64,000 nucleotides of DNA from Desulfobacterales bacterium (lineage in GTDB: Bacteria; Desulfobacterota; Desulfobacteria; Desulfobacterales; JAIPEE01), in NCBI GenBank assembly GCA_021737275.1, contig JAIPEE010000007.1, forward strand, positions 1-64,000. The letters run 5' to 3'. A model generated the notes under the pieces. The model worked only from the letters and a program-made list of their open reading frames with translations. It searched no databases and was not told where the DNA came from. This document shows positions 8,375 to 25,238 of this stretch, piece after piece (the stretch's first letter is position 1; each line of letters begins with the position of its first letter). The position numbers were made by a program, and so were the translations under genes.

Positions 8375-8394
8375 ATACAATTGGAGACAAAAAC

Positions 8395-9759
8395 ATGTCT
8401 TATATCAAAAACAGAGATCAGCTTTTATCCCATGGTTCTGTGCGGGTTCGGGAAATGGCACTTGATATCATTGACTACGCGCTGGCCAGGGCAGACCCTT
8501 ATAAAGCTGTGCGCGACCTTGTCTCACTCCATAATACGACCCTGACTGTCGGTGAAAAAACTTTTGATTTGAAAAAACATAAACGTATTTTCCTGATGGG
8601 AGCGGGAAAGGCGACTTACCCTATAGCAAAAGCACTGGAAGATATTCTGGGAGACAAAATCACCGGTGGTGTCGTTATCTGCAAACATGGCCAGGAAGGT
8701 TCTCTTTCCCGTGCCAAACTCTATTTAGCCGGCCATCCAATTCCTGATGAATTTGGGTTGCATGGGGCAATAGAAATGATGGAACTGGCACGCCAAACCC
8801 AGGCAGATGACATTGTTTTTGGATGTATAACCGGTGGAAGCTCTGCTCTTTTGCCTCTTCCGGTAGAACCGGTGACATTTGAAGAAAAGAAGGCGGTCAA
8901 CCGGCTTCTTTTAACATGCGGCGCCTGCATCGTTGAAATCAATGCGGTCAGAAAACATCTGAGTCTTATCAAAGGCGGAAGGCTGGCAAAGGCTATTCAT
9001 GAAAAAGCACATCTTGTGAACTTAACCGTATCCGATGTGATTGGCGATCCGCTCGATTATATTACTGATCCGACAGTACCGGATACGTCTACCCTGGATG
9101 ATGCCGGAAGAACCCTTACCCGGTATGATCTCTGGGATAAAATTCCTTTTTCCGTATCCCGATTCCTGAAGGATGCCGGGATGGAAGCCGAAACCCCAAA
9201 GGAGAATGATTTATCCGGACGTCATCGATATGACCACATTATTGTGAAAGCTGATGCGGCCTGCATTGCTGCTGTCGAAAAAGCGGAAGAACTGGGTTTA
9301 AATACAATGCTGCTCTCTACAATGCTTGAAGGAGAAAGCAGCGAACTCGGAAGAACCTTTGGTGCTGTTGCAAAAGAAATAACACAAAGCCGGCGGCCAT
9401 TGAAACCGCCCTGCATTATCATCGGCGGAGGAGAAACAACCGTGAAAACAGGCGGCGCTACCGGTGAAGGAGGTCCAAACCAGGAGTTTGCCCTTGCCGC
9501 TGCCCAGTCAATTCACAACCTGAAAGGTGTTGTTGTTGCCGGCATAGATACTGACGGAACAGACGGGCCGACCATTCTGGCGGGCGCACTTGTTGACGGA
9601 GATACGGAAACAATCGCTCAAGAACTGGAAATTGATATTTTTCAAGCGCTTAAGGCACATAATGTATCTCCGTACTTGAGAAAGCTGAAAGACGCAATAG
9701 AAACCGGATCAACCGGAACCAATGTTAATGACTTGAAGTTTATGATTATTGCGCCATAA
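8395..9759 (+). CDS. Glycerate 2-kinase family protein (DUF4147/MOFRL)
   Basis: The 454-residue protein has the two-domain layout of GckA/TtuD-type glycerate 2-kinases: an N-terminal DUF4147 domain with MGAGKA (about residue 65) and a GCITGGSSALL loop, and a C-terminal MOFRL domain with IIGGGETTVKTGG, GGPNQEFALA and AGIDTDGTDG. These enzymes phosphorylate D-glycerate at O2 using ATP. The gene starts 20 bases after the enolase-like gene, with GGAGA upstream, so the two are very likely one transcript. Given the altered enolase, the substrate could be glycerate or a glycerate analogue. No signal peptide is present; a cytoplasmic enzyme is expected. Confidence 0.88.
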   Translation: MSYIKNRDQLLSHGSVRVREMALDIIDYALARADPYKAVRDLVSLHNTTLTVGEKTFDLKKHKRIFLMGAGKATYPIAKALEDILGDKITGGVVICKHGQEGSLSRAKLYLAGHPIPDEFGLHGAIEMMELARQTQADDIVFGCITGGSSALLPLPVEPVTFEEKKAVNRLLLTCGACIVEINAVRKHLSLIKGGRLAKAIHEKAHLVNLTVSDVIGDPLDYITDPTVPDTSTLDDAGRTLTRYDLWDKIPFSVSRFLKDAGMEAETPKENDLSGRHRYDHIIVKADAACIAAVEKAEELGLNTMLLSTMLEGESSELGRTFGAVAKEITQSRRPLKPPCIIIGGGETTVKTGGATGEGGPNQEFALAAAQSIHNLKGVVVAGIDTDGTDGPTILAGALVDGDTETIAQELEIDIFQALKAHNVSPYLRKLKDAIETGSTGTNVNDLKFMIIAP

Positions 9760-9791
9760 ACCTTTAACACAAAGTAATATTGTTTGATAAA

Positions 9792-11057
9792 ATGAATACT
9801 GAAATAAATCTTCCCAAAATGATTCGAGTCAGACAGCAATTTGAAACACCAGTACTTGAAGATATTTCACAGGAAATTTTTTCTCAAATTGACAGACTCA
9901 AACTGTCTTCAAAAATCAAAAAAAAACAGTCGGTTGCCATTGGCTGCAGTAGTCGTGGTATTGCCAACTATGCGGAAATTGTAAAAGCAACCGTTCAAAA
10001 ACTTCAGGTGCTGGGGTTAAAACCCTTTCTTTTCCCGGCCATGGGAAGCCATGGCTCTGCATCTTCGGAAGGCCAGAAAAAGGTACTGGAGAATTATGGT
10101 ATCTCAGAAAAAAAGATGGGCGTTCCGATTAAATCGTCACTGGATGTCATTCAAATTGGAGAGACCGGTGATAGAATTCCTGTTTATATTGATAAACTTG
10201 CTATGAAAGCAGATCATATTGTTCTTATTAATCGTATCAAAATGCATACTGAATTTGACGCCGATATTGAAAGTGGATTGATGAAAATGATGGCCATCGG
10301 GCTTGGAAAAAAAATCGGCGCCACACGCTATCATCAGGCAATTATGGAGATTGGGTACTATCACACAATCCGGACAATCGCACACTGTGTTCTCGAAACA
10401 GGGAAGATTCTGTTTGGCGTGGGCATTGTAGAAAATGGATTATCTCAAACAGCAAAAATAGGTGTACTTCCACCTGAAACATTGGAAGAGGATGAAAAAG
10501 AGCTGCTTAAAGTAGCAAAAAAACTATTTGCGCGTCTGCCGTTTGAGGATGTGGATGTATTGATTATTGATGAAATGGGAAAAGACATCAGTGGTACAGG
10601 TTTTGATTCTAAAGTGGTGGGCCGAATCCATATGCCGCTTATCGCAAAAGAGCCGGCATCGCCCCGCATCAAACGAATTGTGGTTTGTGATTTAACAGAA
10701 AAGACTGAGGGCAATGCCGATGGTGTGGGGCTTGCAGATTTCGTCACGAAGCGCCTGGTAGATAAAATTGATTTCAATGCCCTCTATGTGAATGCGATTG
10801 CAGGCGCTGAACCGGAACACGCAAAGATCCCATTAACATTGAAGAATGACCGAGATGCCGTTAAAGTCGCCATTGGCAGTATTGGGCTCATTCCTATTGA
10901 AAAATTAAAAATCATACACATTAAAAACACATCTCGCTTATGCGAAGTTGACGTATCCGAAGCATATATAAGCGAATTCTCTGATCGAGCCGATTTAGAA
11001 AAGATCTCGGAATTGAGACCGATAGCATTTGATTCAGATGGGAATTTAACAAGATGA
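9792..11057 (+). CDS. LarA-like protein (nickel-dependent hydroxyacid racemase/epimerase superfamily, DUF2088)
   Basis: The 421-residue protein resembles the lactate racemase LarA superfamily. It has an N-terminal AIGCSSRGI nucleotide-like loop, a PAMGSHGSASSEGQ block where LarA carries a catalytic histidine, and KMHTEFD...ESGLMKMM, where LarA carries the second histidine and the lysine that holds the nickel-pincer cofactor. The ATG at 9792 was chosen; a TTG at 9780 is an alternative, and the ribosome site is weak. LarA relatives invert or epimerise 2-hydroxyacids, which fits the neighbouring kinase and enolase-like enzyme. LarB/LarC/LarE cofactor genes are not in the window. Some members of this broad family have no known activity. 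Confidence 0.72.
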   Translation: MNTEINLPKMIRVRQQFETPVLEDISQEIFSQIDRLKLSSKIKKKQSVAIGCSSRGIANYAEIVKATVQKLQVLGLKPFLFPAMGSHGSASSEGQKKVLENYGISEKKMGVPIKSSLDVIQIGETGDRIPVYIDKLAMKADHIVLINRIKMHTEFDADIESGLMKMMAIGLGKKIGATRYHQAIMEIGYYHTIRTIAHCVLETGKILFGVGIVENGLSQTAKIGVLPPETLEEDEKELLKVAKKLFARLPFEDVDVLIIDEMGKDISGTGFDSKVVGRIHMPLIAKEPASPRIKRIVVCDLTEKTEGNADGVGLADFVTKRLVDKIDFNALYVNAIAGAEPEHAKIPLTLKNDRDAVKVAIGSIGLIPIEKLKIIHIKNTSRLCEVDVSEAYISEFSDRADLEKISELRPIAFDSDGNLTR

Positions 11058-11185
11058 GTGTTTACGGGTTAAAATCCGGCAGCTAAGCATTGATTGTAGG
11101 TGCCGGTATGATGATTAATTACAGCAACGGCGTCTGATATTAGAGTCCCTGATATTACATAAAAATATGATAAAGGAGAAGAAAT

Positions 11186-11572
11186 ATGGTTAAACAATCA
11201 ATAATCCGCATGGAAAGCGATGGGCCTGAGGGCATAGGACTTGAATTTTGGGGGAACCTGGAATCTGAAAAAGTATTGGAAGGAGAACCTGTTGAAAAAG
11301 GGTATAACTATTTTACAAATGCCACAGGGCAGTTCACTTCAGGCGTCTGGGAAGTAACGCCATGCAAATCAAGAATCGATGCCCAGCCGGCAGATGAATT
11401 TGTTTATATCATAAAAGGAACCGTCACCCTTACAGATGACGATGGGCATGCTGAAACCTTTACAGCCGGACAATGTTATGTTGTCCCTAAAGGTTTTCCT
11501 CATATATGGCACAATACGGAGACCGTAAGAAAGTTTTATGTGATATTTGAAGAGGCGGTTTCAAAAGAATAA
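11186..11572 (+). CDS. Cupin domain protein (DUF861/cupin_3 type)
   Basis: This small 128-residue single-domain protein shows the two cupin motifs: DEFVYIIKGTVTLTDDDG around residues 71-88 and AGQCYVVPKGFPHIWHN around residues 93-109. The resemblance is to the DUF861/EutQ-like group. A good AAGGAGAAG precedes the ATG. It is 128 bases after the LarA-like gene and may share its transcript. Such cupins can be sugar- or amino-acid-derivative isomerases or hydrolases, or ligand sensors. The function here is open, though the location suggests a side role in the upstream pathway. Confidence 0.75.
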   Translation: MVKQSIIRMESDGPEGIGLEFWGNLESEKVLEGEPVEKGYNYFTNATGQFTSGVWEVTPCKSRIDAQPADEFVYIIKGTVTLTDDDGHAETFTAGQCYVVPKGFPHIWHNTETVRKFYVIFEEAVSKE

Positions 11573-11669: not shown

Positions 11670-13724
11670 TTATTTTATATGATTTGCAATCAGCTCACTG
11701 AAGTCAATGGCTTCCATTTCACCTTCAAATCCGGCGACCTTGATGGCATCTTCAATATTTACCATGCAGAACGGACAGGCAGTGATAATGACATTGGCAC
11801 CGGCATCATGCGCCATTTTTACCCTTAATACGCCCATGCGGACCTCTTCTTCAGGTTCATAAAAGAGCATGAGCCCGCCGCCGCCGCAGCAGAAGGAGCG
11901 GTCTCCGTGTTTGTCCATTTCGACTCTTTTCAGGCCGGGTATTGCATCAATTGCTTCTCGCGGGTTGTCATAAATGCCATTATGGCGTCCGAGATAACAT
12001 GGGTCATGATAAGTGTAGATCTTTTCGCTGTCTTCAACCGGTTTGAGTTGAACTTTGTTATAGGCAATTTCTCTGGAAATTACCTGGCTGATATGTTTAA
12101 CCGGCAAGTCCAGTTTATAATCATTTTTCAATGCATTAAGGGCATGGGGGTCTGCGGTAACAATCTCTTTAACACCCGATTCCACAATGGCATCAATATT
12201 TTGAGTTTTGAGATCCTGATACAAAAACTCTTCACCAAAGCGCAACACTTCATTACCGCTGTCTTTTTCCTGTTTGCCGAGAATACCAAAGTCAACACCG
12301 GCCGCCTTCAGGATTTTGGCGGTGCTCCGGGCAATGCTGTTCATCCGTTCATCATAAGATGAGATACTGTCTACAAAGTAAAGCGTTTCAGCTTCAACGC
12401 CTTTTTCCAGAACCTTTACTTCGCATTCAGCCTTGAACGCTTCATCCTTAATTGCCCAGTCTGCACGCTTCTTTTCCATCTTGCCCCAGGGATTACCTCT
12501 TTTTTCAAGGGCCTTAAGTGGTTTCTGAAGCGTCTGGGGAACCTCGCCTTCATCTACCAACCCTCTTCTGAGGTCGACTATTTTATCTATATATTCAATG
12601 CCAAGAGGACACTCCTGTTCACAGGCGCCGCAGGTGGTACATGACCAGATCTCATCATTTTCGTAGATGGTGCCCATAACCGGCTGATCGGGATTAGATT
12701 CACCCCTGAGCGGATAATTTTTAAAAATAAAATCACGTCCCTTAATGGAGATAAATCTGGGAGATAATGGCCGGCCTACTGCATTGGCCGGGCACTGGTC
12801 GGAACACCGTCCGCAGTCTGCACAGGTATAAAAATCAAGAAGGTGTTTCCATGTAAAATCTTCCAGTTTCTTTACGCCAAAGGAATCAAGATCATCGAGC
12901 GCTTCATCGGAAATACCGTGTTTGACGGGTTTGATATTGCCCCTGGTGATTCTCATGAAAAAGACATTGAAAATCGATGTAATGACATGAAAGTGCTTAC
13001 CCAGCGGTAAAAAACATAAGAAAAAGAAAAAGGTCAGGTCATGAATAAAGTATGAGAAGATATGCAAACCCTGCAATGTACCGGGAGATGCATTGTGCAG
13101 CATGGCTGCAAAAATCCAGACAAGGGAGAGCGGCGGCAGAAAACCTCCTTCCCCGCCGGCATGTGCGGCTGCTTCAAAAAGACTTTCTGAAAGCATGAGC
13201 GTCATAATCAATGCCAGCACAAAGACAGCTTCAGAAGTATGGTCGTGACCGTATTTTTCAGGGACGGCATATCTGGCCGGTTTAAAAACACCTCTTCTGA
13301 CAGCAGCAACAAGACAGGCAAAAAATACGGCCGTTGCCGCATAATCTTTTGAAAAATTATAAATATCGCCGAGCACGCCACCCAGGCCGGGCAAGACAAA
13401 ACCGTCGGCAAAACCAATAACGACCAGAGATGTGGACCGGATGGATAAAACCAGAAACCCGAAAAAAATAATAATGTGCAATACACCGGCCAGCATGTAT
13501 CGCGGCTGACGGCTCTGGGCCAGCCAGATATTAAAAAGGTTTTTTATTCTTTCCGGGATATTTTCAAAACGGTTATCCGGTGCAGCCTTTAAAAGCGGCG
13601 CGAACCTTTTCCAGATAATATAACCGAACAAGGCAACACCGATAATCGGTATGAGTTGAGAAAATATAATTGTCGGGATGAACCCAAACAGCTTGTAACT
13701 TGCGGGACCTGCTATAGGTGTCAT
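11670..13724 (-). CDS. Membrane-bound FeS oxidoreductase, ETF:quinone oxidoreductase type (DUF224/CCG)
   Basis: The 684-residue protein starts with a multi-helix membrane domain (about residues 15-265, NarI-like). Two ferredoxin-type clusters follow, CADCGRCSDQCP near residue 303 and CTTCGACEQECP near residue 366. A C-terminal cysteine-rich part contains HDPCYLGRHNG, SFCCGGGG and CPFC, like heterodisulfide reductase subunit B/D CCG domains. This architecture is known from sulfate reducers and syntrophs as the membrane partner that passes electrons between ETF and the menaquinone pool. Here it lies downstream of acd, etfB and etfA on the same strand, so it should take electrons from the acyl-CoA dehydrogenase through ETF. 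Haem-ligating histidines are likely in the membrane part but were not individually assigned. Confidence 0.85.
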   Translation of the reverse strand: MTPIAGPASYKLFGFIPTIIFSQLIPIIGVALFGYIIWKRFAPLLKAAPDNRFENIPERIKNLFNIWLAQSRQPRYMLAGVLHIIIFFGFLVLSIRSTSLVVIGFADGFVLPGLGGVLGDIYNFSKDYAATAVFFACLVAAVRRGVFKPARYAVPEKYGHDHTSEAVFVLALIMTLMLSESLFEAAAHAGGEGGFLPPLSLVWIFAAMLHNASPGTLQGLHIFSYFIHDLTFFFFLCFLPLGKHFHVITSIFNVFFMRITRGNIKPVKHGISDEALDDLDSFGVKKLEDFTWKHLLDFYTCADCGRCSDQCPANAVGRPLSPRFISIKGRDFIFKNYPLRGESNPDQPVMGTIYENDEIWSCTTCGACEQECPLGIEYIDKIVDLRRGLVDEGEVPQTLQKPLKALEKRGNPWGKMEKKRADWAIKDEAFKAECEVKVLEKGVEAETLYFVDSISSYDERMNSIARSTAKILKAAGVDFGILGKQEKDSGNEVLRFGEEFLYQDLKTQNIDAIVESGVKEIVTADPHALNALKNDYKLDLPVKHISQVISREIAYNKVQLKPVEDSEKIYTYHDPCYLGRHNGIYDNPREAIDAIPGLKRVEMDKHGDRSFCCGGGGLMLFYEPEEEVRMGVLRVKMAHDAGANVIITACPFCMVNIEDAIKVAGFEGEMEAIDFSELIANHIK

Positions 13725-13748
13725 GATATTTCTTCCTTTTAAAAGGGT

Positions 13749-13809
13749 GTCTGAAGTGAGCTAAAGTGAGAGACGCTTTATTAAATAAAACCTTTAGCCC
13801 ACTTCAGAC
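13749..13809. repeat. Imperfect inverted repeat between etfA and the FeS oxidoreductase gene
   Basis: Arms 13749-13766 and 13792-13809 (GTCTGAAGTG... and ...CACTTCAGAC) pair over about 17 of 18 positions. The left arm resembles the sequence at 22269-22291, upstream of the thiolase gene. It may be an intercistronic RNA hairpin that sets relative expression within the operon, or a small dispersed repeat. Confidence 0.5.
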
Positions 13810-13892
13810 GGTGGTACAGCAACTAAAAATTGCCTTTCAGCCCGATTATTGCGTACTCGAGCCGAAAGTATTATTTTCAAACAATTTCATAC

Positions 13893-14846
13893 TTATTGTA
13901 CTTTTTCAGTCAATTCCGGAATAAACTCCAGAATATCACCAACAATACCGACATCGGCAACCTGGAAAATAGGCGCCTTGGGGTTTTTGTTTATGGCGAT
14001 AATAAATCCGCCCTTGATTCCGCCAAGATGCTGGAATGCACCGCTGATACCCATTGCCAGATAGACTTTAGGTTTAACGGTCTTGCCGGACGTGCCGACC
14101 TGACGGGCCTGTTCCAGCCATTTGGCATCAACAATAGGTCTTGAACATGAAAGTTCTGCGCCCAGGGCTTCAGCCAGCTCTTTGGCCATCTCGATATTAT
14201 CTTCGTCTTCAATACCTCGCCCAACAGAAACAAGAATATCCGCTTTAGTAATATCAACACCGCCGGAATCCGGTGTAACGGTTTCGATATAGCGACGTTT
14301 AACGTCAACATCCGTGTTGACGGTTTTATCAACCACGTTACCACCGGCAGCCGCATTTTCTTTAGGAATAAAAGCACCCGGCCTGATATTGACGATGGCA
14401 CCGGATGAAATATCACAGTTTACATGCGAGTATACTTGCCCGAACAGTTCCTGTCGAACGGTTTTAAGGGTATTGCCATCAACTTCCATTTCAATGACAT
14501 CTGCAACCAGCGGCGAGTCAACAAGAATTGACAGGCCCGGAGACAGGTCCATACCAAATGAGTTATGATGTGTAATGAAAACGGCGTCCGCAGGAAGCAC
14601 CTCTATAAGGGCCTTTCTGATGATTTCAGCATTCGGATATGCAAATTTTACATCATCAATTTTCCAGATCTCATTGAAAGATCCTGCAACTTCATTACAA
14701 ACAGCATCAAGGTCAGTCCCTGATCCAACAACAATGCCGGTTACCTGTGCAGTAGCATCAATCTGAGCGGCTGCCGTCAGAAGCTCAAGCGCACACTCAT
14801 CTGCTGCGCCGTTTTTATGCGGGATATATGCAAATAATTGTGTCAT
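13893..14846 (-). CDS. etfA: Electron transfer flavoprotein alpha subunit
   Basis: The 317-residue protein has the ETF alpha layout. The C-terminal FAD-binding domain includes VGRGIEDEDNIEMAKELAEALGAE, CSRPIVDAKWL, GISGAFQHLGG and INKNPKAPIFQVADVGIVGD. With the beta subunit it forms a soluble FAD heterodimer that accepts electrons from acyl-CoA dehydrogenase. Its ATG overlaps the etfB stop by one base (TGATGA context), so the two subunits are translationally coupled. The only odd point is the long gap (168 bases with a hairpin) before the membrane oxidoreductase gene. Confidence 0.95.
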   Translation of the reverse strand: MTQLFAYIPHKNGAADECALELLTAAAQIDATAQVTGIVVGSGTDLDAVCNEVAGSFNEIWKIDDVKFAYPNAEIIRKALIEVLPADAVFITHHNSFGMDLSPGLSILVDSPLVADVIEMEVDGNTLKTVRQELFGQVYSHVNCDISSGAIVNIRPGAFIPKENAAAGGNVVDKTVNTDVDVKRRYIETVTPDSGGVDITKADILVSVGRGIEDEDNIEMAKELAEALGAELSCSRPIVDAKWLEQARQVGTSGKTVKPKVYLAMGISGAFQHLGGIKGGFIIAINKNPKAPIFQVADVGIVGDILEFIPELTEKVQ

Positions 14847-15631
14847 CAGCTCATCCCTCCTTTACTCTTAAGCAGTTCAATTACTTTATTTACTTTTTCT
14901 TCCATACTGCCCTCGATCATTTCCGCGCCCTCACCGAGATCAGGAACAAAGTAATCAACTCTTTTTACCTTTGATGCATCGATTCCAATTTCATCAGCAG
15001 AAAGGCCCAGGTCAGATGCTCTGTATTCGGGAATCTCAACACTACTTACTTTTCTGATACCACGAAGGCTGACATAGCGCGGTTCATTAATACCGGTTTG
15101 AATAGACAAAACACAGGGAAGGTCAATTTCACTGACTTCCTGGTCGCCGCCTTCAATTTCCCGGCCGATTTTAAGTTTGCCGTCATCAATAACTTCGATC
15201 ATATTAACTAATGACGCATAAGGTCTGTCCAGCATTGCTGCCAGCATACCGCCAACCTGGGCTTCTCCGCCATCGGCCTGGGCACCGGTTAAAATAAGGT
15301 CATAGGAGCCTTTTTCGGAAACCGCTTTTAAAACTGATGCAATGCCTTTTCCATAAGCGGCATCAGTTACCAGGATACCCTGCTGTGACCCCATGGCCAT
15401 TTCACGGCGAAGAACTTCATCCGCCTTTTCCTCATCACTCTCTACGGTGACGACCGTTACAGATCCACCTTTATCTTCAGTGATGCTGATGGCCTCTTCG
15501 ACCGCATAGTTATCCCATTCATTTATTGAATAGACCAGATCATCACGAACGATATCTGTTCCATCGCTTTTTATCTCTATCTCGTTTTCTTCAAGGTCGG
15601 GAACCCCTTTGATACAAACAAGAATTTCCAT
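14846..15631 (-). CDS. etfB: Electron transfer flavoprotein beta subunit
   Basis: The 261-residue protein opens with MEILVCIKGVPD, characteristic of ETF beta, and contains the LILTGAQADGGEAQVGGMLA block near residue 112 and the central SIQTGINEPRYVSLRGI segment. It is the AMP-binding partner of EtfA. The gene follows acd by 17 bases with AGGAGGTTCTC upstream of the ATG, so acd-etfB-etfA form one operon. The standard ETF role from acyl-CoA dehydrogenase to the membrane is the simplest reading. No sign of an electron-bifurcating partner (for example a ferredoxin gene) is seen next to it. Confidence 0.95.
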   Translation of the reverse strand: MEILVCIKGVPDLEENEIEIKSDGTDIVRDDLVYSINEWDNYAVEEAISITEDKGGSVTVVTVESDEEKADEVLRREMAMGSQQGILVTDAAYGKGIASVLKAVSEKGSYDLILTGAQADGGEAQVGGMLAAMLDRPYASLVNMIEVIDDGKLKIGREIEGGDQEVSEIDLPCVLSIQTGINEPRYVSLRGIRKVSSVEIPEYRASDLGLSADEIGIDASKVKRVDYFVPDLGEGAEMIEGSMEEKVNKVIELLKSKGGMS

Positions 15632-15648: not shown

Positions 15649-16812
15649 TTATCTGTTCGCTTTTCTGATACCCAGCTGGTCTGTACCAATAATCATTTTA
15701 CAGATATTGTTGGAACCCTCTACAATTACATATGTCGGCACATCTCTGTAGTATCTGGCAATGTTATACTCGCTAGAATAACCGTAGGCACCCATGATTT
15801 TTAGCGCATATTCAGCACACTTCATGGCTGCATCGCCTGCCACAAGCTTGGCCTGTGCCACTTCAAGGTTGTTACCCAGCATACCATTGTCTTTCTGCCA
15901 TCCGGCTCTGTAAACCATCAGGCGGGCAGATTCTACCATGACGGACATCTGGGCAATCAAATCCTGGTTCATCTGGAATGTTCCAACGGGTTTGCCAAAC
16001 TGCTTTCTTTCATTACAGTACTTGATGGCCATTTCGAGACAGGCCTGTGCACAGCCGACACCGCCTGCTGCTGCAGAAAGGCGTGTATTTCCGAGGGAAG
16101 TAAAAACAATTCTAGCGCCGTCACCCGGTTTTCCGAGAATATTTTCTTTTGGAATTTTACAGTTGTCCAGGAAAACTTCACCGGTTGGAGAAGAAAATGA
16201 TCCCATTTTTGAAAGATCTGTTGTTTTGACGCCTTCAAAGTTTTTGGGTTCAAGAACAAATGCGGACAGGCCCTTGCTGCCCAGAGATTTATCGGTGTAT
16301 GCGTAAAGCACCAATACATCCGCTGCTGCTGCATTGGAGATCCATGTTTTATTACCATTGATCAGCCAGTGGTCGCCCTTGTCTTCAGCTGTTGTTTCGA
16401 TAGCCATTACATCGGAGCCGGCACCGGGTTCGGTGATTGCAAATCCACCGACATATTCACCGCCGCAGAGTTTCGGCACATACTTTTTCTTAATATCTTC
16501 AGAACCATAAAGATAGATAGGGTAAGCGCATCCAACGCCCTGCATATTGATCTGAACACGTAAAGAACTTGAAACACGGGCAATTTCTTCTGTGATAATA
16601 CACATAGCCAGAAAGCCCATATCTTCTCCGCCATACTCTTCAGGAATGGTTGCACCATAAAAACCCAGTTCGCCCATAGGTTTTAACACCTCTTCTACCG
16701 GCAGATAGTGATTTTCATCCCATTCTGAAGCATTGGGCTCAATTTTTTTAGTACAGAAATTACGAACCTCTTTTCTCAGCATTTCCAGTTCTTTTGAAAG
16801 TTTAAAATCCAT
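15649..16812 (-). CDS. Acyl-CoA dehydrogenase
   Basis: The 387-residue protein has the normal length and three-part fold of the family. It includes AITEPGAGSDV near residue 128 (FAD/substrate binding), the QLIA-type middle helices, RKQFGKPVGTFQMNQ, and the catalytic-base glutamate in VEGSNNICKMIIG near the C terminus. It oxidises a CoA thioester to the enoyl-CoA and reduces ETF. It is the first gene of the acd-etfB-etfA operon. Chain length cannot be fixed from sequence; short-chain or branched/substituted acyl-CoA are all possible. Its position between ETF and a trimethylamine methyltransferase raises the possibility that the substrate is an amine-bearing acyl-CoA. Confidence 0.92.
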   Translation of the reverse strand: MDFKLSKELEMLRKEVRNFCTKKIEPNASEWDENHYLPVEEVLKPMGELGFYGATIPEEYGGEDMGFLAMCIITEEIARVSSSLRVQINMQGVGCAYPIYLYGSEDIKKKYVPKLCGGEYVGGFAITEPGAGSDVMAIETTAEDKGDHWLINGNKTWISNAAAADVLVLYAYTDKSLGSKGLSAFVLEPKNFEGVKTTDLSKMGSFSSPTGEVFLDNCKIPKENILGKPGDGARIVFTSLGNTRLSAAAGGVGCAQACLEMAIKYCNERKQFGKPVGTFQMNQDLIAQMSVMVESARLMVYRAGWQKDNGMLGNNLEVAQAKLVAGDAAMKCAEYALKIMGAYGYSSEYNIARYYRDVPTYVIVEGSNNICKMIIGTDQLGIRKANR

Positions 16813-17026: not shown

Positions 17027-18499
17027 TTACTTTGTAATGCCCATTTCCGATTCTGTTTCCTCGATAATGGCGCGCATTTGAGCTTTTATATCATCAGAAA
17101 TTGGTTCGGGTTTATGGTTTTCTATAATATCACGGGCCTTTTTAAGGGCTCTATCCTGAAGACTTGTTCTGCCTGCCGTTTCCCAGTCTTCAAACATGTT
17201 GCGGTCTATCAGTTTCGGCGCAGACTGAGATCTCATATATTTAAATGATGATTCATGGCTGAGAAAGTTTCCGGCGATACCTATCTCCTGGATCGCTTCA
17301 ACAGCCAGTGTTTCATCGTTTACAGGAATACCCTGTACGCTGAACTTGATCATCTCTGCAAACTCATTATCCATGACCAGCTGGCCATAGTCTATCGTCA
17401 TACCCATTTCGATCATACCCAGGCCGTAAATGAGGTTGGCACCTGCCAACGCCGGTAATAAGCCTGTAAGGGTTTTTTCATGACCGATCTGAGCATCGGA
17501 TGTTTTGCTGTCGCCCTATCCACCGGCGACCCAGCTTGGCAAGAGATAGTAGTTTGCCAGACGGGCTACAGCGGCATTAATCATGCCGCATTCGGGACAG
17601 CCGACTGCGGCTGCAGCCATACGCATATCCATTGCTGTGGTGGAGCTGCCGTATATAACCTTAGCACCCTTGCGGGTCAGCTGGCTCAACACGATGCCGC
17701 CCAGTACTTCTGCATTATGGTCAACCAGTGTGCCGGCCAGTGTAATGGGTGAAGATCCACCGGCCATTGCCATTGAAAGAATGTTTACGGCAAGCCCTGC
17801 CTTTGCTCCTTCCATGATAATTTCACAGGTTTCCTTAACCAGTTGCAGCGGGCTGACCGGACATGTAATCAGGGAAATAATTGGATTTTCTCTCAGTTTA
17901 TCTTTTCCGCCAACAACAGTTGCAACCATTTCAACCAGTTTTTTGGTAATATAGCCGTTTCCGGATCCCATAAAACCATGTTTGGTCGTGTTGGGCAGCC
18001 ATGCTTCGGCATTATGAAGCTGTACCGTGTCCATGGGAACATCACTTGCGCCAACAGCTCGCTCATAAACATCGATATTGGGAAGTGCATCCACAATCAA
18101 TGCAGAGGTTGCAACATCTGCTTTGGTGGTTTCGCGACGTTCCCCCGTATAAGGATCTATAATAAAAACACCTTCGCCAAAGTTGGTAAAGCCTACACGG
18201 TTACCTTCCATGACATAATTGTTTTTTGGGTTTCGGCCATGCAGAATAAGCTTTGACGGTGCTGATCGAATGGCATCTTCTACCAGCCAGGGCGGAATCT
18301 TTACGGTTTTAGTTTTCTTGTCTACAATAGCGCCGCCGCCATCGAAGGCTTCCAGGGCCTCATCCGTCTCTACAAAAAGTCCAACCTTCTCCAGAATTTC
18401 GAGAGTGGCCAGATGGATTTCATCGAGTTCGTCGTCGGTAAAAACATTCAGGCTGAAACCGCCGCCCATTATTTTACCGGCATGTAAATTGCGTCTCAT
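17027..18499 (-). CDS. mttB: Trimethylamine:corrinoid methyltransferase MttB, pyrrolysine-containing
   Basis: The reading frame is 490 codons when the in-frame TAG at codon 328 is read as pyrrolysine. The first part gives 327 residues and the continuation 162 residues, both in the same frame. The join reads LPSWVAGG-Pyl-GDSKTSDAQ, the site where MttB enzymes carry pyrrolysine; the total length matches the roughly 495-residue archaeal enzyme. The start (AAAGGAGG, ATG at 18499) and the opening GGGFSLNVFTDDELDEIH are typical. MttB transfers a methyl group from trimethylamine to a cognate corrinoid protein. The corrinoid protein gene is not here. The gene follows an IclR gene by 52 bases on the same strand, and a TGTTTCA half-site lies in that gap. 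A quaternary amine rather than free trimethylamine as substrate is possible but less favoured, given the Pyl residue. Confidence 0.93.
17516..17518 (-). other. In-frame amber codon read as pyrrolysine (mttB codon 328)
   Basis: The plus strand reads CTA, so the minus strand has TAG. The codon lies inside a conserved domain with family sequence continuing in the same frame on both sides, and the gene ends properly in TAA 162 codons later. Confidence 0.92.
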
Positions 18500-18551: not shown

Positions 18552-19325
18552 TTACCCCATGTATCCCATTGTTTTCGAGCAAGAGTGTGCCGCATGACAG
18601 AGCTCTTTCAAACAAAATTTTTGATGATCCGGATCCTGAAACCTGATTTCGGGTATCGCCAGGCTCATGGATGCCAGAAGAACTCCTTTGTGATCCAGAA
18701 TCGGGGCGCTGATGGAGCCGAGTCCGGATGTTCTTTCACCCAGGCTTATTGCATAACCCTGTTCCCTGATATTGGCGAGTTCTGTTCTGAGCCGGGTTAT
18801 GCTTGAAATAGTGCTTTCAGTTACCGGAGACAGTTTTTTGATACTCAGGTAGCTTTCAATAAATTCATCAGTTGAAAATGCCAGCAGGCATTTTGATGAG
18901 GCACCGGCATACAGCGGTGACCGGTTTCCGATCGGCATGCTGGCTCTCAGGTTTTGAGGTGATTCAATGTTTTCAACACACACTCGATCCATATCTTCAA
19001 TGACATTAAGATGAACGGTTTCCTGTGTTTGGGACAGAATTTGTTTCATAAACGGCAGGGCTGCTTTGGTAACCGGATATGTGCTCTGAAGTGTGTTGAG
19101 AAATCGGAAAAATATATTTCCGAGACGGTACTGACGTGAGAGCGGGTCCTGGTCCACAAACCGGTAGGATTTTAGAGTCTGAAGAATACGCTGAACTGTG
19201 GCCGGGTTTAGATCCAGATGGGAAGCCAGTTCCCGGACCCCCCAGGTTCGAGGTTCTTCCTGGAATGCCAGTAGTGTCACAAGGGCTTTTTGGATAGAGT
19301 TTAATTTAGGTTTACTTTGTTTCAT
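18552..19325 (-). CDS. IclR family transcriptional regulator, copy A
   Basis: The 257-residue protein has a winged helix-turn-helix in the first 75 residues (LNPATVQRILQTLKSYRF) and an IclR effector domain with RASMPIGNRSPLYAGASSKCLLAF and AISLGERTSGLGSISAPI. It is very similar over its whole length to the second regulator at 19667-20443, so the two are tandem duplicates. It is immediately upstream of mttB on the same strand, so it may be cotranscribed with it and control it. A candidate operator sits about 210 bases upstream, at 19534. The effector is probably a methylated amine or a CoA ester from the cluster; this is inference. Confidence 0.92.
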   Translation of the reverse strand: MKQSKPKLNSIQKALVTLLAFQEEPRTWGVRELASHLDLNPATVQRILQTLKSYRFVDQDPLSRQYRLGNIFFRFLNTLQSTYPVTKAALPFMKQILSQTQETVHLNVIEDMDRVCVENIESPQNLRASMPIGNRSPLYAGASSKCLLAFSTDEFIESYLSIKKLSPVTESTISSITRLRTELANIREQGYAISLGERTSGLGSISAPILDHKGVLLASMSLAIPEIRFQDPDHQKFCLKELCHAAHSCSKTMGYMG

Positions 19326-19666: not shown

Positions 19667-20443
19667 TCAAGTATGATGATAGCCCCTCGTTTCAGAACAA
19701 CTCCGGGTCGCCTTAATCAGTTCTTGACGGCAGAAGTTGAGATGATCAGAATTATTAAATCTGATTTCAGGAATTGCAAGGCTGATTGATGCCAGTAAAA
19801 CACCTTTATGATCCAGTATCGGTGCGCTGAGAGATCCGAGCCCTGGCGTACGTTCACCCATACTTATGGCAAACCCCTGCACTCTTGTTTCAGCAATTTC
19901 TGTTCTGAGTCGGGTAACATTTGAAATCGTATTTTCAGTAACCGGGGTCAGTTTTTTGAAACTCAGGTAGCTTTCGATGAACTCATCAGACGAAAAGGCC
20001 AGCAGGCATTTGGATGATGCGCCTGCATAAAGTGGTGAACGGCTTCCGATCGGCATGCTTGCCCTGAGATTTTGAGGTGATTCAATGTTTTCAACACAGA
20101 CACGATCCATATCCTCTATAACATTAAGATGAACCGTTTCCTGTGTTTTTGACTGAAGCTCTTTCATAAAAGGCAATGCAGCCTTTGAAACCGGGTATGT
20201 GCTTTGCAGCGTATTGAGAAACCGGTAAAAAATGTTTCCCAGGCGATACTGGCGAGTCTTGGGATCCTGATCAATAAACCGGAAAGATTTCAATGTCTGG
20301 AGAATGCGCTGAACCGTAGCAGGGTTCAGGTCAAGATGGGTGCCCAGCTCTCTGACACCCCAGGTTTGCTGATTTTCCTGAAAAGCCAGAAGTGTTACCA
20401 ATGCCTTTTCGATAGAGTTTAGTTTATCTTTATTTTGTTCCAT
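19667..20443 (-). CDS. IclR family transcriptional regulator, copy B
   Basis: The 258-residue protein is a close paralogue of the IclR protein at 18552-19325; long blocks such as HLDLNPATVQRILQTLKS and QETVHLNVIEDMDRVCVEN are shared exactly. It is divergent from mtbB across a 372-base gap that contains two copies of a 19-bp palindrome, one near its own start. This arrangement suggests that copy B autoregulates and controls mtbB, while copy A serves mttB. Cross-regulation is likely, because the recognition helices are nearly the same. Confidence 0.92.
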   Translation of the reverse strand: MEQNKDKLNSIEKALVTLLAFQENQQTWGVRELGTHLDLNPATVQRILQTLKSFRFIDQDPKTRQYRLGNIFYRFLNTLQSTYPVSKAALPFMKELQSKTQETVHLNVIEDMDRVCVENIESPQNLRASMPIGSRSPLYAGASSKCLLAFSSDEFIESYLSFKKLTPVTENTISNVTRLRTEIAETRVQGFAISMGERTPGLGSLSAPILDHKGVLLASISLAIPEIRFNNSDHLNFCRQELIKATRSCSETRGYHHT

Positions 20444-20672: not shown

Positions 20673-20815
20673 ATATTTTGTTAATATTCGCAGGGCCGGA
20701 TAGGCAACCGTATTGATTTTATGGTTGGGAATAATATTTAGTTTCCATTTAAAATTCACCATTTTGTGGAAACGAGGTGTGACAGCAAACGATAGTAACA
20801 AGGAAGGAGAGCAAT

Positions 20816-22192
20816 ATGAGCAAAATTATCACTCGCATGGGTGACGGTTCAGCTGTTGAGATGACAGATAGTGAACTGATGGAGGATCTGGTTAAGGGTG
20901 GGGAAGATGCCGCTGAACGCGGCCGGATACCGATGTTGAACAAGGAAGAACTTCAGTACCTGTTTGATGTGTTCAAATCGCCCTACAAATTTGTTTCAGT
21001 AGAGCCCGGTAATGAAGTTATCATGACTTATGATGGTGCACCCATCAAGATGACACGCGCAGATGTTCATATGAGCCGCATTCAGGCGCTTCAGATATAT
21101 GAAAAAATGTTTGGTGCTGATACGCTTGAGCTGGGTCATATTGATTACAGTTACAAACAGATCAAGCCTATTGTCGGTTTTGAGCAACCGCTGGTGGAGC
21201 AGACATTAATGGTTACGACCGCACCTCTTATTTATGGTGCGATGCCAAACCTGGGTCTTTACAGCCAACCGGACGGACCTTTTCCGAATCCTTCGGAACT
21301 GATGCCCATGGGCAAAATAAAAGAGGCCCAGGAATCCTATGAGGCAGCTGTTGAAGACGCCGTCAAGGATATTGTCTTTGTTGGTGGAGAGATGTACGAA
21401 TCCGGCGTTGACGGTCTTATTCTGGATACGGTTGGTGCCGCCGGTGATGCAGACGTAATGGCAAGCGCCATTGCTACCCGGATGCTGAAAGATAAATACC
21501 CGGATATCTGTATTGAATTCGGTATGGCCGGAGAGTTCACACTGGGTATGCATGGCGAAATGTCATATGAAGGCATCCGCCTGGCGGGTCAGTATGCGCA
21601 TGAACAGGTCAAGGTTGCGGAGCTGGCCGGTGCGTCTCTGTTTGGTTCAGTTGTAAATACCAACACCAGCATGTCAACACCTTGGAATCTGGCAAGGGCC
21701 ATCGTTTTTACAAAAGCCTGTACAGACGTAGCCAATATTCCGGTTCATGCGAACATGGGCATGGGTGTTGGTGCATTAACGGTTAATGACTTTGTTCCTG
21801 TAGATGTTATTTCCCGTTGTTCAAAAGCCATGGTTGAGTTGTGTAAACTTGATGGTTTGTAGGTTGGCGTTGGCGATCCTATGGGAATGGCAATTTCACA
21901 TGCAATGGCTTCAGGTATGGGCGGTATGAGAGCAGCCGGAGATCTGGTTGCCCGGGTACAAATGTCCAAAGGCATGAAAATTAATGAAGCAAAAGCATAC
22001 GTTGCTGATAAAATTGGAGTTGCTGTTTCAGAACTGACAGACCCGATTATCATGAGTGAGGTACGTGAAGACCTGAAAATAGGCACGCTGCATCCTGTTG
22101 GCAGTAGAAGTGTCAAGTTCATGGAAGCAAAAAAGAATATGGCAAAAGTGCTGGATCTTGAAATCAACTGTGTTAACAAGCTGATGTCATAA
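20816..22192 (+). CDS. mtbB: Dimethylamine:corrinoid methyltransferase MtbB, pyrrolysine-containing
   Basis: Reading TAG at codon 349 as pyrrolysine gives a 458-residue protein ending in TAA at 22192. The junction KLDGL-Pyl-VGVGDPMGMA matches the pyrrolysine site of archaeal MtbB (about residue 356 of about 467). The N-terminal MSKIITRMGDGS and the long middle domain with LDTVGAAGDADVMASAIA and GASLFGSVVNTNTSMSTPWNLARA are also MtbB-like. GGAAGGAGAG precedes the ATG. The enzyme demethylates dimethylamine onto a corrinoid protein, which then feeds a methyl-transfer pathway. Downstream on the same strand are thiolase, 3-hydroxyacyl-CoA dehydrogenase and enoyl-CoA hydratase, separated by two hairpins. 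No mtbC or monomethylamine methyltransferase gene is present. Confidence 0.93.
21860..21862 (+). other. In-frame amber codon read as pyrrolysine (mtbB codon 349)
   Basis: TAG interrupts an otherwise continuous MtbB frame, with 109 further sense codons in the same frame before TAA. The position coincides with the pyrrolysine site known for this family. Confidence 0.93.
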
Positions 22193-22388: not shown

Positions 22389-23567
22389 ATGAAAGAAATA
22401 GTAATATTAGGATCAGGCCGTTCAGCAGGTGGAAAATATGGTGGTGGTTTATCAACACTGACTTCTCCGGAAATCGGCGCAACCGTTGTCCGCGAAACCA
22501 TTAAAAGGTCCGGTATAGAAGCAGATGTTATTGATCAGACTGTTTTTGCCACAGCATGGCAGGCCGGTACAGGCCCGAACCCGGCACGTTTGATTTCCGT
22601 TAATGCAGGAATTCCGGTTGATGCACCGGCTGTTTCGGTCAATGTTCGTTGCGGTTCCAGTATCCAGGCCATCATTTTTGGTTCACAGGCTATAAAGGCC
22701 GGTGATGTGGAAACAGTGATGGTTGGCGGAGCTGAAAGTGCCAGCCAGGTACCTTATTCCATGCCAAATGCCCGCTGGGGTTATCGCATGGGTGATGGCA
22801 AGCTTGAAGACCTCCTGCACAAAGATGGTTTTCGTTGCCCCCTGGGCGGCGGTTTAATGGGTGAAATTACCGATCCGTTGGCCGAAGAGCTGGGGATTAC
22901 CCGCGAAGAACAGGATGCCTTTGCTGCAGACAGTCATAACAAAACTGAAGCGGCTGTTAAAGCCGGTTTATTCGAAGAAGAGATTGTACCTATTGAAGTA
23001 CCGGGCAGAAAAGGTCCGACTATTTTTAAAGATGAAGAGATTTTCCGTGCAGGTATGACTGCCGAGTCTTTAGTGAAACTCAAACCGGTTTTTAGAAAAG
23101 AAGGTACCATTACAGCAGCAAATGCTTGTGCCCTTTGTGATGCTGCCGCCGCCCAGACCATTATGGACAGAGAAAAAGCCAAAACAATGAATTTGAATCC
23201 GATGGCACTGATTCGCGGATATTCATTTGTCGGTTATGATCCGAAGAGATTCGGTATGTCACCGGTTAAGGCTATCCCGGCAGCTTTGAAGCACGCGGGT
23301 CTGTCTCTTGAAGACATGGATCTTATTGAGCTCAACGAAGCCTTTGCAGCCCAATATATTTCCTGTGAGAGAGAACTGAAACTGGACCGCAGCAAGGTGA
23401 ATGTAAATGGCGGCGCTATTGCACTGGGACATCCGGTTGCAGCGACAGGATCAAAAATTCTTACAACCCTGCTATATGCCTTAAAGAACCGGGACAAACA
23501 GTTTGGTCTGGTCAGTCTTTGTGTTGGCGGTGGAAACGGCGTAGCTTTGGTTGTTGAACGCTTGTAA
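22389..23567 (+). CDS. Thiolase (acetyl-CoA C-acetyltransferase family)
   Basis: The 392-residue protein has the thiolase catalytic set: nucleophile C88 in NVRCGSS, the LNEAFAAQ block, the histidine in NGGAIALGHPVAATG and the second cysteine in SLCVGGGNGVALV. AGGAGG precedes the ATG. It cleaves a 3-oxoacyl-CoA with CoA or condenses two acetyl-CoA. In this catabolic context with 3-hydroxyacyl-CoA dehydrogenase and enoyl-CoA hydratase, cleavage to acetyl-CoA is expected. The substrate chain length is not evident. Confidence 0.93.
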   Translation: MKEIVILGSGRSAGGKYGGGLSTLTSPEIGATVVRETIKRSGIEADVIDQTVFATAWQAGTGPNPARLISVNAGIPVDAPAVSVNVRCGSSIQAIIFGSQAIKAGDVETVMVGGAESASQVPYSMPNARWGYRMGDGKLEDLLHKDGFRCPLGGGLMGEITDPLAEELGITREEQDAFAADSHNKTEAAVKAGLFEEEIVPIEVPGRKGPTIFKDEEIFRAGMTAESLVKLKPVFRKEGTITAANACALCDAAAAQTIMDREKAKTMNLNPMALIRGYSFVGYDPKRFGMSPVKAIPAALKHAGLSLEDMDLIELNEAFAAQYISCERELKLDRSKVNVNGGAIALGHPVAATGSKILTTLLYALKNRDKQFGLVSLCVGGGNGVALVVERL

Positions 23568-23601
23568 TTTTTTAAAAATATATATATCAGGAGGATCCAA
23601 A

Positions 23602-24459
23602 ATGGCTATTAATAAAGTGCTCGTAATCGGTGCAGGTACAATGGGCGCAGGCATTGCCCAACTTTGTGCTCAGCAGGGACTTGAAACAATTCTTACAGAT
23701 ATCAAACAGGAATATTCAGATGGCGCACTGGCCCGTATTGGAAAAGGTCTGGATAAGCGTATTGCCAAAGGTAAAATTACTGAAGAAGATAAAAGTGCGG
23801 TACTTTCAAAAATGACGGCAGCTGAGGGTCTTGGCGTTGCAGCCGACGTTGATATTGTTATCGAAAGTGTTGTCGAAAATCTGGAAATAAAAAGAAGTGT
23901 TTTCGCAGAGCTTGATGCGACGGTTCGAGAAGATGTTATTCTTCTGACCAACACAACATCTCTTTCTATTTCAGCAATGGCTGAAGCAACAACCCGACCG
24001 GAAAAAGTTGTGCAGATGCACTTTTTTAACCCCCCGACAATTATGAAGCTGGTTGAAATTATGCCGGGCAAAAAAACTTCACAGGAAACACTTGATGCAG
24101 CAGCAGCATTTGCCGCTCAATTGGGCAAAGATCCGGTAGTTTGCAAGAATGAAGCGCCTGCCGGTATTGTCAGCCGTGTTCTGGGACAGATGCTCAATGA
24201 AGCCACCTGGTTAGTTGCATCCGGTGTAGCAGATCCGGAAGCGGTGGATAAGGCCATGAAGCTTGGCGCCAATCATCCCATTGGGCCACTGGCTCTGTTA
24301 GATATGATCGGGCTGGATATTCATCGTGCAAAAATGCAGACATTGTATAGAGAGCTGGATGATCCGCGTTACCTGCACCCACCGATTGTAGATGAAATGA
24401 TTGAGGCGGGAAATCTTGGCAGGAAAACAGGAAAAGGTTTTTATGAATACGGAGAATAA
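23602..24459 (+). CDS. 3-hydroxyacyl-CoA dehydrogenase (3-hydroxybutyryl-CoA dehydrogenase type)
   Basis: The 285-residue protein has an N-terminal Rossmann fold with GAGTMGAGIAQ and the catalytic histidine in MHFFNPPTIMKLVEIM near residue 141, then the C-terminal dimerisation domain with NHPIGPLALLDMIGLD. The single-unit length of about 285 matches the 3-hydroxybutyryl-CoA dehydrogenase group rather than a multifunctional FadB. The start at 23602 (CAGGAGGATCCAAA upstream) was preferred to an upstream ATG overlapping the thiolase end. It oxidises the 3-hydroxyacyl-CoA using NAD and sits between thiolase and enoyl-CoA hydratase in one operon. Confidence 0.94.
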   Translation: MAINKVLVIGAGTMGAGIAQLCAQQGLETILTDIKQEYSDGALARIGKGLDKRIAKGKITEEDKSAVLSKMTAAEGLGVAADVDIVIESVVENLEIKRSVFAELDATVREDVILLTNTTSLSISAMAEATTRPEKVVQMHFFNPPTIMKLVEIMPGKKTSQETLDAAAAFAAQLGKDPVVCKNEAPAGIVSRVLGQMLNEATWLVASGVADPEAVDKAMKLGANHPIGPLALLDMIGLDIHRAKMQTLYRELDDPRYLHPPIVDEMIEAGNLGRKTGKGFYEYGE

Positions 24460-24461
24460 TC

Positions 24462-25238
24462 ATGTTTGAAAATATAATATTTGAAACAGACGGACCCATT
24501 GCCAGACTGACCTTTAATCGTCCGGACAAGATGAATGCCGTTAATAATGCTACGGTTGACGAGTTGGATCAGGCCCTGGAAATGGTAGAAAAAAACCAGG
24601 AGCTTCGCGTACTGATAATTACCGGTGCAGGTAAGGCTTTTGTTGCCGGTGCAGATATTGGTGAGCTTGATAAACGAGATACGGTGCAGGGCAGGCTGGA
24701 TACCAAAAGGCGTCAGGCTGTTTATACCCGTATTGAACAGTTGGAAATACCCTCCATCGCAGCGATTAACGGATTTGCCCTGGGCACAGGCCTGGAGATA
24801 GCGCTTGCCTGTACATTTCGTATTGCTTCTGCAAAGGCAAAAGTGGGCCAGCCCGAAGTAAAGCTGGGCATCATTCCGGGAGCCGGCGGTACGCAGCGTC
24901 TTCCCCGTGTTGTAGGTATGAGCCGCGCTATGGAGATGATTCTGACCGGTGATATTTTTAAGGCGGATCAGGCACTTGCAATGGGACTGGTTATCAGGGT
25001 GGCCGAACCGGATGATTTGATGCAGGAAGTAGAAAAACTGGCTAAAACAATTATCCTCAGGCCGAAACTGGCAATTCAGTATGCGAAGGAAGCTATATTA
25101 AAATTTTCTGAAGGGTCTCTTGAAGACGGGCTATCCAGAGAATCTTATCTGCATGCACTTTCATGCGGTACCGAAGATAAAAAGGAAGGTGTAAAGTCCT
25201 TTCTTGAAAAGAGAGACCCGGTATTTAAGGGACGATAA
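24462..25238 (+). CDS. Enoyl-CoA hydratase/isomerase family protein
   Basis: The 258-residue crotonase-fold protein has the oxyanion-hole segment AGADIGELD near residue 64 and both catalytic glutamates, in GTGLEIALAC and GQPEVKLGIIPGAGGTQRL. That pattern indicates a true hydratase rather than a dehalogenase or decarboxylase relative. It begins two bases after the previous stop and is the last gene of the thiolase operon. Together with the acyl-CoA dehydrogenase on the other strand, the genes complete a four-step beta-oxidation spiral. Confidence 0.93.
   Translation: MFENIIFETDGPIARLTFNRPDKMNAVNNATVDELDQALEMVEKNQELRVLIITGAGKAFVAGADIGELDKRDTVQGRLDTKRRQAVYTRIEQLEIPSIAAINGFALGTGLEIALACTFRIASAKAKVGQPEVKLGIIPGAGGTQRLPRVVGMSRAMEMILTGDIFKADQALAMGLVIRVAEPDDLMQEVEKLAKTIILRPKLAIQYAKEAILKFSEGSLEDGLSRESYLHALSCGTEDKKEGVKSFLEKRDPVFKGR

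Follow-up and report, generated by a model that had tools for sequence, protein, structure and literature searches.

Introduction

How cells tell a UAG codon that specifies pyrrolysine (Pyl) from a UAG codon that ends translation is an open question. The window studied here, a 64-kb stretch of DNA in contig C15 of the genome of a sulfate-reducer-like bacterium (4.26 Mb in 104 contigs, 96.4% complete), contains an mtbB gene for a dimethylamine:corrinoid methyltransferase interrupted by an in-frame amber codon. We asked whether this codon is likely to be decoded, and whether the mRNA carries a signal that might mark it. Pyl-encoding marine Deltaproteobacteria have been described by Kivenson et al. 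2021 (PMC8318568), who, in the parts of that paper covered, report a dimethylamine methyltransferase with in-frame Pyl in most genomes surveyed as well as Pyl-MttB, with up to five copies of the trimethylamine methyltransferase per genome. As such bacterial Pyl-MtbB is already in print, this part of our analysis is ordinary. New are the freeze of silent sites downstream of the amber codon, the covariation, the extra base pairs and the AGAU loop of an RNA hairpin at this place, and the poor fit of the first stem of the Rfam model PYLIS_2 in bacteria.

Results

The amber codon of mtbB lies at the pyrrolysine site

The mtbB frame (Table 1) opens with ATG at position 20816 and comprises 348 codons, the TAG as codon 349, 109 further sense codons and a TAA at 22190-22192, which confirms the frame proposed in an earlier note on this DNA. 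The read-through product passes the curated family threshold of TIGR02368 (466.5 bits, cut-off 369.1) and matches PF09505 with 607.3 bits (cut-off 25). The earlier note had also placed the amber codon at the Pyl site of MtbB, and had stressed that two methyltransferase families carry amber codons at their own Pyl sites. Both statements held: the UAG at model positions 1-3 of PYLIS_2 falls exactly on 21860-21862 in a match spanning 100 of 100 positions, and codon 328 of mttB lies inside a PYLIS_3 match. The protein was modelled as a TIM barrel with a mean pLDDT of 91.2, which is the fold expected for MtbB; the best VIA Z of the model was 19.2 to the MetH barrel, and the Z to the M. mazei methyltransferase 4ay8 was 18.1. 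Foldseek ranked generic TIM barrels at the top, and MttB and MtmB chains were not among the structure matches listed. A sequence search found no solved relative (best E 0.23), and MtbB was not found in the plasmid collection searched.

Table 1. Coordinates of features in the window and, in the last row, of the mtbB gene with TCG in place of the amber codon.
Feature	Position	Strand	Remarks
etfB, etfA, Fe-S/CCG protein genes	11670-15631		after the acyl-CoA dehydrogenase gene
Acyl-CoA dehydrogenase	15649-16812	-	downstream of mttB; glutaryl-CoA dehydrogenase Acd NF045552, 732.5 bits, cut-off 470
mttB, trimethylamine:corrinoid methyltransferase	17027-18499	-	amber TAG 17516-17518, codon 328; PYLIS_3 match
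Smaller hairpin in mttB	17435-17450	-	G UUGGC (AGGU) GCCAA C; positions 69-84, T of TAG = 1
IclR-family regulator	18552-19325	-	between mttB and mtbB
Second IclR-family-like regulator	19667-20443	-	divergent from mtbB
Probable ribosome-binding site GGAGAG	20806-20811	+	read from sequence; 4 nt ahead of mtbB ATG
mtbB, dimethylamine:corrinoid methyltransferase	20816-22192	+	458 residues if codon 349 is pyrrolysine
In-frame amber TAG, predicted pyrrolysine codon (residue 349)	21860-21862	+	TTG before, G after
Rfam RF02509 PYLIS_2 (mtbB pyrrolysine insertion sequence) match	21860-21959	+	92.6 bits
Conserved RNA hairpin in mtbB	21930-21953	+	stem 21930-21939 with 21944-21953, loop AGAU 21940-21943
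Thiolase, 3-hydroxyacyl-CoA dehydrogenase, enoyl-CoA hydratase genes	22389-25238	+	downstream of mtbB
mtbB with TCG	L074 2175-3530; L076 2160-3524		

The genome contains 12 PF09505 matches, 11 full-length mtbB genes and one fragment (C55:11430-11657), each with one TAG, which in all 11 full-length copies falls in the same column. Likewise, an amber codon occupies the Pyl site in 79 of 80 named bacterial loci, which span Desulfobacterota, Spirochaetota, Chloroflexota, Acidobacteriota, Bacillota and others and include Desulforhopalus singaporensis and Desulfospira joergensenii. The locus search was not biased to TAG, since one of its two peptide patterns coded Lys at the site. The sole exception, L076 (= L074), has Ser (TCG) at the site and changes in two neighbouring, otherwise conserved residues, and retains the hairpin motif described below; decay, an error or a true non-Pyl MtbB could each account for it. 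It is the only candidate non-Pyl mtbB known here; a large non-Pyl family is absent, so that the hairpin has no negative control.

Downstream of the amber codon the mismatches to seven relatives fall mostly on third codon positions, as they do upstream; for L075 the counts at the three positions are 21/9/56 downstream and 83/44/209 upstream. Protein identity to these relatives is 65-73% after and 64-70% before the amber codon. In the surveyed regions, which were chosen around methyltransferases and are hence biased towards them, TAG ends 54 of 246 open reading frames of at least 200 codons, and 21 of the 22 TAG-ended frames with at least 80 open codons beyond are mttB or mtbB. Because TAG also terminates ordinary genes, UAG is ambiguous in this genome. 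We conclude, from sequence comparison, that the window gene encodes a Pyl-containing MtbB in which UAG 349 is read as pyrrolysine, with a probability of roughly 0.93. The gene resembles methanogen mtbB (TIGR02368, PF09505) in its full-length family match, the amber at the Pyl codon and the conserved flanks, but resides in a bacterial host without a shown methanogenic sink.

The genome encodes a complete set of pyl genes

The pyl genes which the earlier note expected in the host were found in one 5.2-kb stretch of contig C63, in the order tRNA-Pyl (anticodon CUA), corrinoid protein, pylSc, pylB, pylC, pylD and pylSn, and all five Pyl proteins exceed their curated cut-offs. Near these genes lie a methyltetrahydrofolate:corrinoid methyltransferase gene (NF005719, 352.6 bits) and a gene for a second corrinoid protein. 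None of these, that is neither a corrinoid protein, nor pyl genes, nor the methyltetrahydrofolate:corrinoid methyltransferase, was found within the 64-kb window. As the window encodes no corrinoid protein, the MtbC-like protein beside pylSc is the best candidate partner of MtbB, with 215.0 bits to TIGR02370 (cut-off 215.3) and 199.8 to the MtbC model (cut-off 350).

In a survey of 389 genomes of the class, mtbB was present in 37 and a PylS match (E <= 1e-20) in 56; up to four candidates were scored per genome, so that copy numbers from this survey are lower bounds. PylS was matched in 31 of the 37 genomes with mtbB and in 25 of the 352 without (Fisher p 1e-24), and such a match was absent at this threshold from six mtbB genomes (G221, G266, G270, G301, G375 and G384). 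A pyl gene lies in the flanks of mtbB (up to 4 kb) in 18 of the 80 named loci. On contig C55 (L034) the mtbB fragment, which still carries the amber codon, comes after a corrinoid gene (10685-11314) with a product that shares 88% identity with the corrinoid protein of the pyl cassette. In L077 the order corrinoid-mtbB-pylSc-pylB-pylC is intact; mtbB may therefore have moved out of the cassette in the source genome.

On this basis, UAG 349 would be decoded by tRNA-Pyl charged by the split PylSn/PylSc, with Pyl made by PylB, PylC and PylD, all of which the source genome encodes. The pyrrolysine ring of MtbB would bind dimethylamine and one methyl group would be passed to the corrinoid protein; judging from established work on methylamine methyltransferases, Pyl may bind the amine and present the methyl group to the Co(I) corrinoid. 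The methyltetrahydrofolate:corrinoid methyltransferase would presumably feed the methyl group to tetrahydrofolate.

A conserved hairpin follows the amber codon of mtbB

After removal of five short sequences, 86 of 91 entered the scan of silent sites in mtbB, and exclusion of those more than 85% alike left 64. Among 144 conserved codons, the strongest freeze of codon choice was observed at Gly375 (GGA in 64/64) and Asp376 (GAT in 60/64). The third-ranked Ser112 is a six-fold-codon effect, and Gly369 and Leu377 (CTG in 60/64) rank fourth and fifth. Codons 375-377 lie in a hairpin which, numbered with the T of TAG as 1, pairs 71-80 with 85-94 around an AGAU loop (81-84), the loop beginning 77 nt past the UAG codon; it contains CGGAGATCTGGT at 21937-21948. 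In the window copy 9 of 10 stem positions pair, with 72-93 (21931-21952) mismatched. The codon 5' of the amber (21857-21859) also shows a silent-site bias, being TTG in 51 of the 64 sequences, and may be part of the amber context.

The hairpin was aligned in 103 rows, 97 of them distinct. The alignment excludes L134, whose frame is shifted after the amber codon, as well as duplicate rows and rows that do not extend over 100 nt; it also lacks the mtbB fragment of the source genome and ten of the 29 rows from loci L045-L073. All 103 rows have A at base 81, which is a silent site. For nine pairs, standard pairing was observed in 94.2% of 873 cells, and the covariation reached 0.294, as compared to 0.131 +/- 0.009 in 500 shuffles, none of which scored as high; versions of the hairpin slid along the alignment gave 0.033-0.090. 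Three of the pairs, 72-93, 75-90 and 78-87, join third codon positions, and 78-87 occurs as C-G in 76, U-G in 16, A-U in 2 and U-A in 2 of the 97 distinct sequences and is unpaired in one.

When 29,933 variable column pairs across the whole of mtbB were scanned without bias, the two top-ranked were silent-silent pairs of the hairpin, 372.3-379.3 (50/64 paired, 26.4 expected) and 373.3-378.3 (56/64 paired, 32.8 expected). Among stacks of two silent pairs, that of the hairpin again scored highest, with 11.8 versus 4.7 for the best stack sharing no pair with it. Tree contrasts of these two pairs were scored as purine or pyrimidine because a shift in G+C content cannot mimic this change; the partner followed in 7.1 of 10 and 8.9 of 15 independent contrasts and opposed in 0.0 and 0.1. 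A search of 1.01 Mb of loci for YGGAGATCTGG gave 86 hits, of which 85 stand exactly 78 nt downstream of a TAG and the remaining one downstream of the TCG in L076. Across the whole source genome, all nine occurrences of the strict 12-mer fall within mtbB genes, and looser forms are also present at nine sites outside them. Over 100 nt, the predicted folding of the window RNA did not surpass that of shuffled sequences (z 0.19). An internal start after the amber codon, for which GGAG could serve as a Shine-Dalgarno-like element, was rejected since no more than 29 of 64 sequences have GTG at codon 378, the candidate start. Taken together, the comparative data indicate that the mtbB hairpin is very probably a real RNA structure under selection.

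A possible smaller hairpin in mttB

Amber mttB genes have the consensus hairpin UURGC(AGGN)GCYAA at positions 70-83, extended by a sixth pair 69-84, in a family which, according to the covered part of PMC9842639, has no significant sequence homology to MtbB. The six pairs are formed in 86.1% of 294 cells, with a covariation of 0.155 against 0.088 +/- 0.011 in shuffles. All 28 instances of the strict word in 1.01 Mb of loci stand 69 nt after a TAG, and all eight in the whole source genome lie inside amber mttB genes. The hairpin is not universal among amber mttB genes: the loop is AGGN in 35 of 49 and differs in the other 14. The hairpin was not outstanding in the unbiased covariation scan, and RNAalifold keeps three of its pairs. 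Tree contrasts are few, with 4.8 of 6 and 3.0 of 3 going the same way, and those scored as purine or pyrimidine are uninformative; the switches from G-C to A-U could partly follow base composition. Hence, the sequences are suggestive of a hairpin weaker than that of mtbB, similar in kind and at about the same distance from the amber codon.

Discussion

The mtbB hairpin overlaps the second stem of Rfam PYLIS_2 (model positions 73-92, with the amber at 1-3), so that its place had been predicted earlier. Three pairs, 71-94, 72-93 and 78-87, are additional in the bacterial set; Rfam leaves 78-87 unpaired, and its consensus has aGAc where the bacterial loop reads AGAU. The first PYLIS_2 hairpin (7-38) was not supported in bacteria: 72.2% of cells are paired among the 97 distinct sequences, and several pairs are mostly broken. 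The structure of mtbB mRNA was modelled in a 2013 study, according to which mttB gives no indication of a common structure (PMC3639795). In the available portions of a review, the PYLIS of mtmB is described as not essential for Pyl insertion, its covariance as limited, and nothing like PYLIS as having been seen in mtbB (PMC2933860); similarly, proposed PYLIS elements are judged non-essential, absent from mtbB or of limited covariance in the covered text of PMC2933860 and PMC9499178. The covered parts of PMC8318568 contain no treatment of mtbB RNA structure, whereas the hairpin is described here. Papers on such a bacterial element were not found by title or abstract in a search that covered papers outside subscription journals.

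The mRNA downstream of the UAG would thus fold into a conserved AGAU-loop hairpin kept by selection, and the likeliest role we can offer for it, a guess, is promotion in cis of UAG decoding at the expense of termination. We advance this role tentatively, at somewhat less than even odds, from comparison of sequences. The SECIS of selenoprotein genes is likewise a cis hairpin after a recoded stop codon; however, the bacterial SECIS lies immediately downstream and is bound by SelB (PMC9499178, covered part), whereas the mtbB hairpin is about 70 nt away. At this distance the hairpin could not touch a ribosome stalled at the UAG, and a role in decoding would therefore require either a trans factor bound to the hairpin or ribosomes queuing behind one that the hairpin slows. 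We know of no factor that binds the mtbB hairpin.

The distance of about 70 nt from the amber codon, and the persistence of the motif in L076, where the amber is replaced by TCG, would equally suit a hairpin that is real but unrelated to UAG decoding, such as an element for mRNA stability, processing or regulator binding in methylamine genes, a reading to which we give close to an even chance. Comparison cannot separate amber and hairpin, because mtbB nearly always has the amber codon. What speaks against an unrelated element is amber mttB, a family without significant sequence homology to MtbB that shows a similar hairpin at nearly the same distance, its four-base loop also starting with AG; the strict motif of this hairpin is confined to 69 nt after a TAG in the loci and to amber mttB genes in the whole genome. 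It is conceivable, if rather doubtful, that a missed general recoding element arose in the two unrelated families, a hairpin with a four-base loop starting with AG about 70 nt after the UAG, which would mark Pyl UAGs in genomes that also use UAG as a normal stop. Should the decoding role of the hairpin prove true, it would help in finding Pyl genes and in tuning amber decoding in engineered hosts; with silent positions frozen or covarying across several bacterial phyla, the hairpin is a precise, testable candidate recoding signal.

Two further explanations concern the gene itself. The mtbB fragment on contig C55 shows that copies decay in the source genome, and the amber could in principle be a sequencing error or the decaying stop of a pseudogene; we consider this negligible, since the amber is present in 12/12 mtbB matches of the genome and 79 of 80 named loci, and third-position-biased substitution continues past it, in agreement with the earlier note, which had judged error or chance decay unlikely. 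The 11 full-length copies might alternatively be paralogues for different secondary amines, such as N-methylated amino acids or dimethylated degradation products, with the window copy serving the surrounding beta-oxidation cluster. Consistent with this, the source-genome copies are spread over five separate places in the tree, with seven copies grouped in one clade, the ten other copies are 47-64% identical to the window copy, and genes for acyl-CoA dehydrogenase, ETF, thiolase, 3-hydroxyacyl-CoA dehydrogenase (HAD) and hydratase adjoin the latter. Nevertheless, the window copy, the only one scanned with it, passes the cut-off of TIGR02368, which is an equivalog model of the dimethylamine enzyme, and in its clade the flanks of mtbB (up to 4 kb) yielded no beta-oxidation genes, whereas mttB is found directly upstream. 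We regard such specialization as unlikely, though worth considering, and retain dimethylamine as the probable substrate of the window enzyme.

mtbB copies and neighbouring genes

The 12 mtbB matches are the highest number among the eight genomes counted in full, the seven others having 4 to 10. Neither this number of matches nor the hairpin had been anticipated in the earlier note. M. barkeri has three mtbB genes, mtbB1-3 (PMC2933860, covered part), as compared to the 11 full copies here. In addition, 33 of 36 MTTB-family matches are full-size and 10 carry TAG; thus, next to the Deltaproteobacteria of Kivenson et al., the same kind of bacterium, the source genome has 10 amber mttB and 11 full amber mtbB genes. 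A genome with so many copies suggests that Pyl enzymes can form a major part of a bacterium's metabolism.

In a tree of 87 MtbB proteins, seven source-genome copies form one clade and four, including the window copy, stand apart among other bacteria. Within the clade of the window copy, the loci L075, L082, L085, L090, L092 and L093 have mttB immediately upstream of mtbB, at 62-72% identity to the mttB of the window; in the window the two genes diverge, with the two IclR genes between them. In the named loci of this clade no acd, ETF, thiolase, HAD or hydratase gene was found in the flanks of mtbB (up to 4 kb), for which reason the beta-oxidation genes were set aside as a clue to the substrate.

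Elsewhere in the window, positions 525-4607 encode GcvPA and an adjacent GcvPB-like protein, the latter with only an Aminotran_5 match, and 7091-11057 an enolase, a glycerate 2-kinase-like protein and a nickel-pincer isomerase (NF052515, 499 bits). The sole MtmB homologue of the genome (L019 1501-2850; C8:99270-100619; PF05369, 312.5 bits) is without amber, and Pyl202 of M. barkeri MtmB aligns with a Tyr in it; an MtmB homologue that lacks Pyl and acts on tetramethylammonium and choline has been published (PMC13044021, covered part). The corrinoid frame preceding this gene (L039 8602-9249; C8:98601-99248) ends in TAG and stays open for 461 codons, into the non-Pyl mtmB, which may reflect a coincidence of register or a fusion made by readthrough. 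Two frames that by eye resemble the ureohydrolase (agmatinase) family (L031 1930-2883 and L025 15742-16776) were observed close to two further copies of mtbB, and their products are a possible source of dimethylamine.
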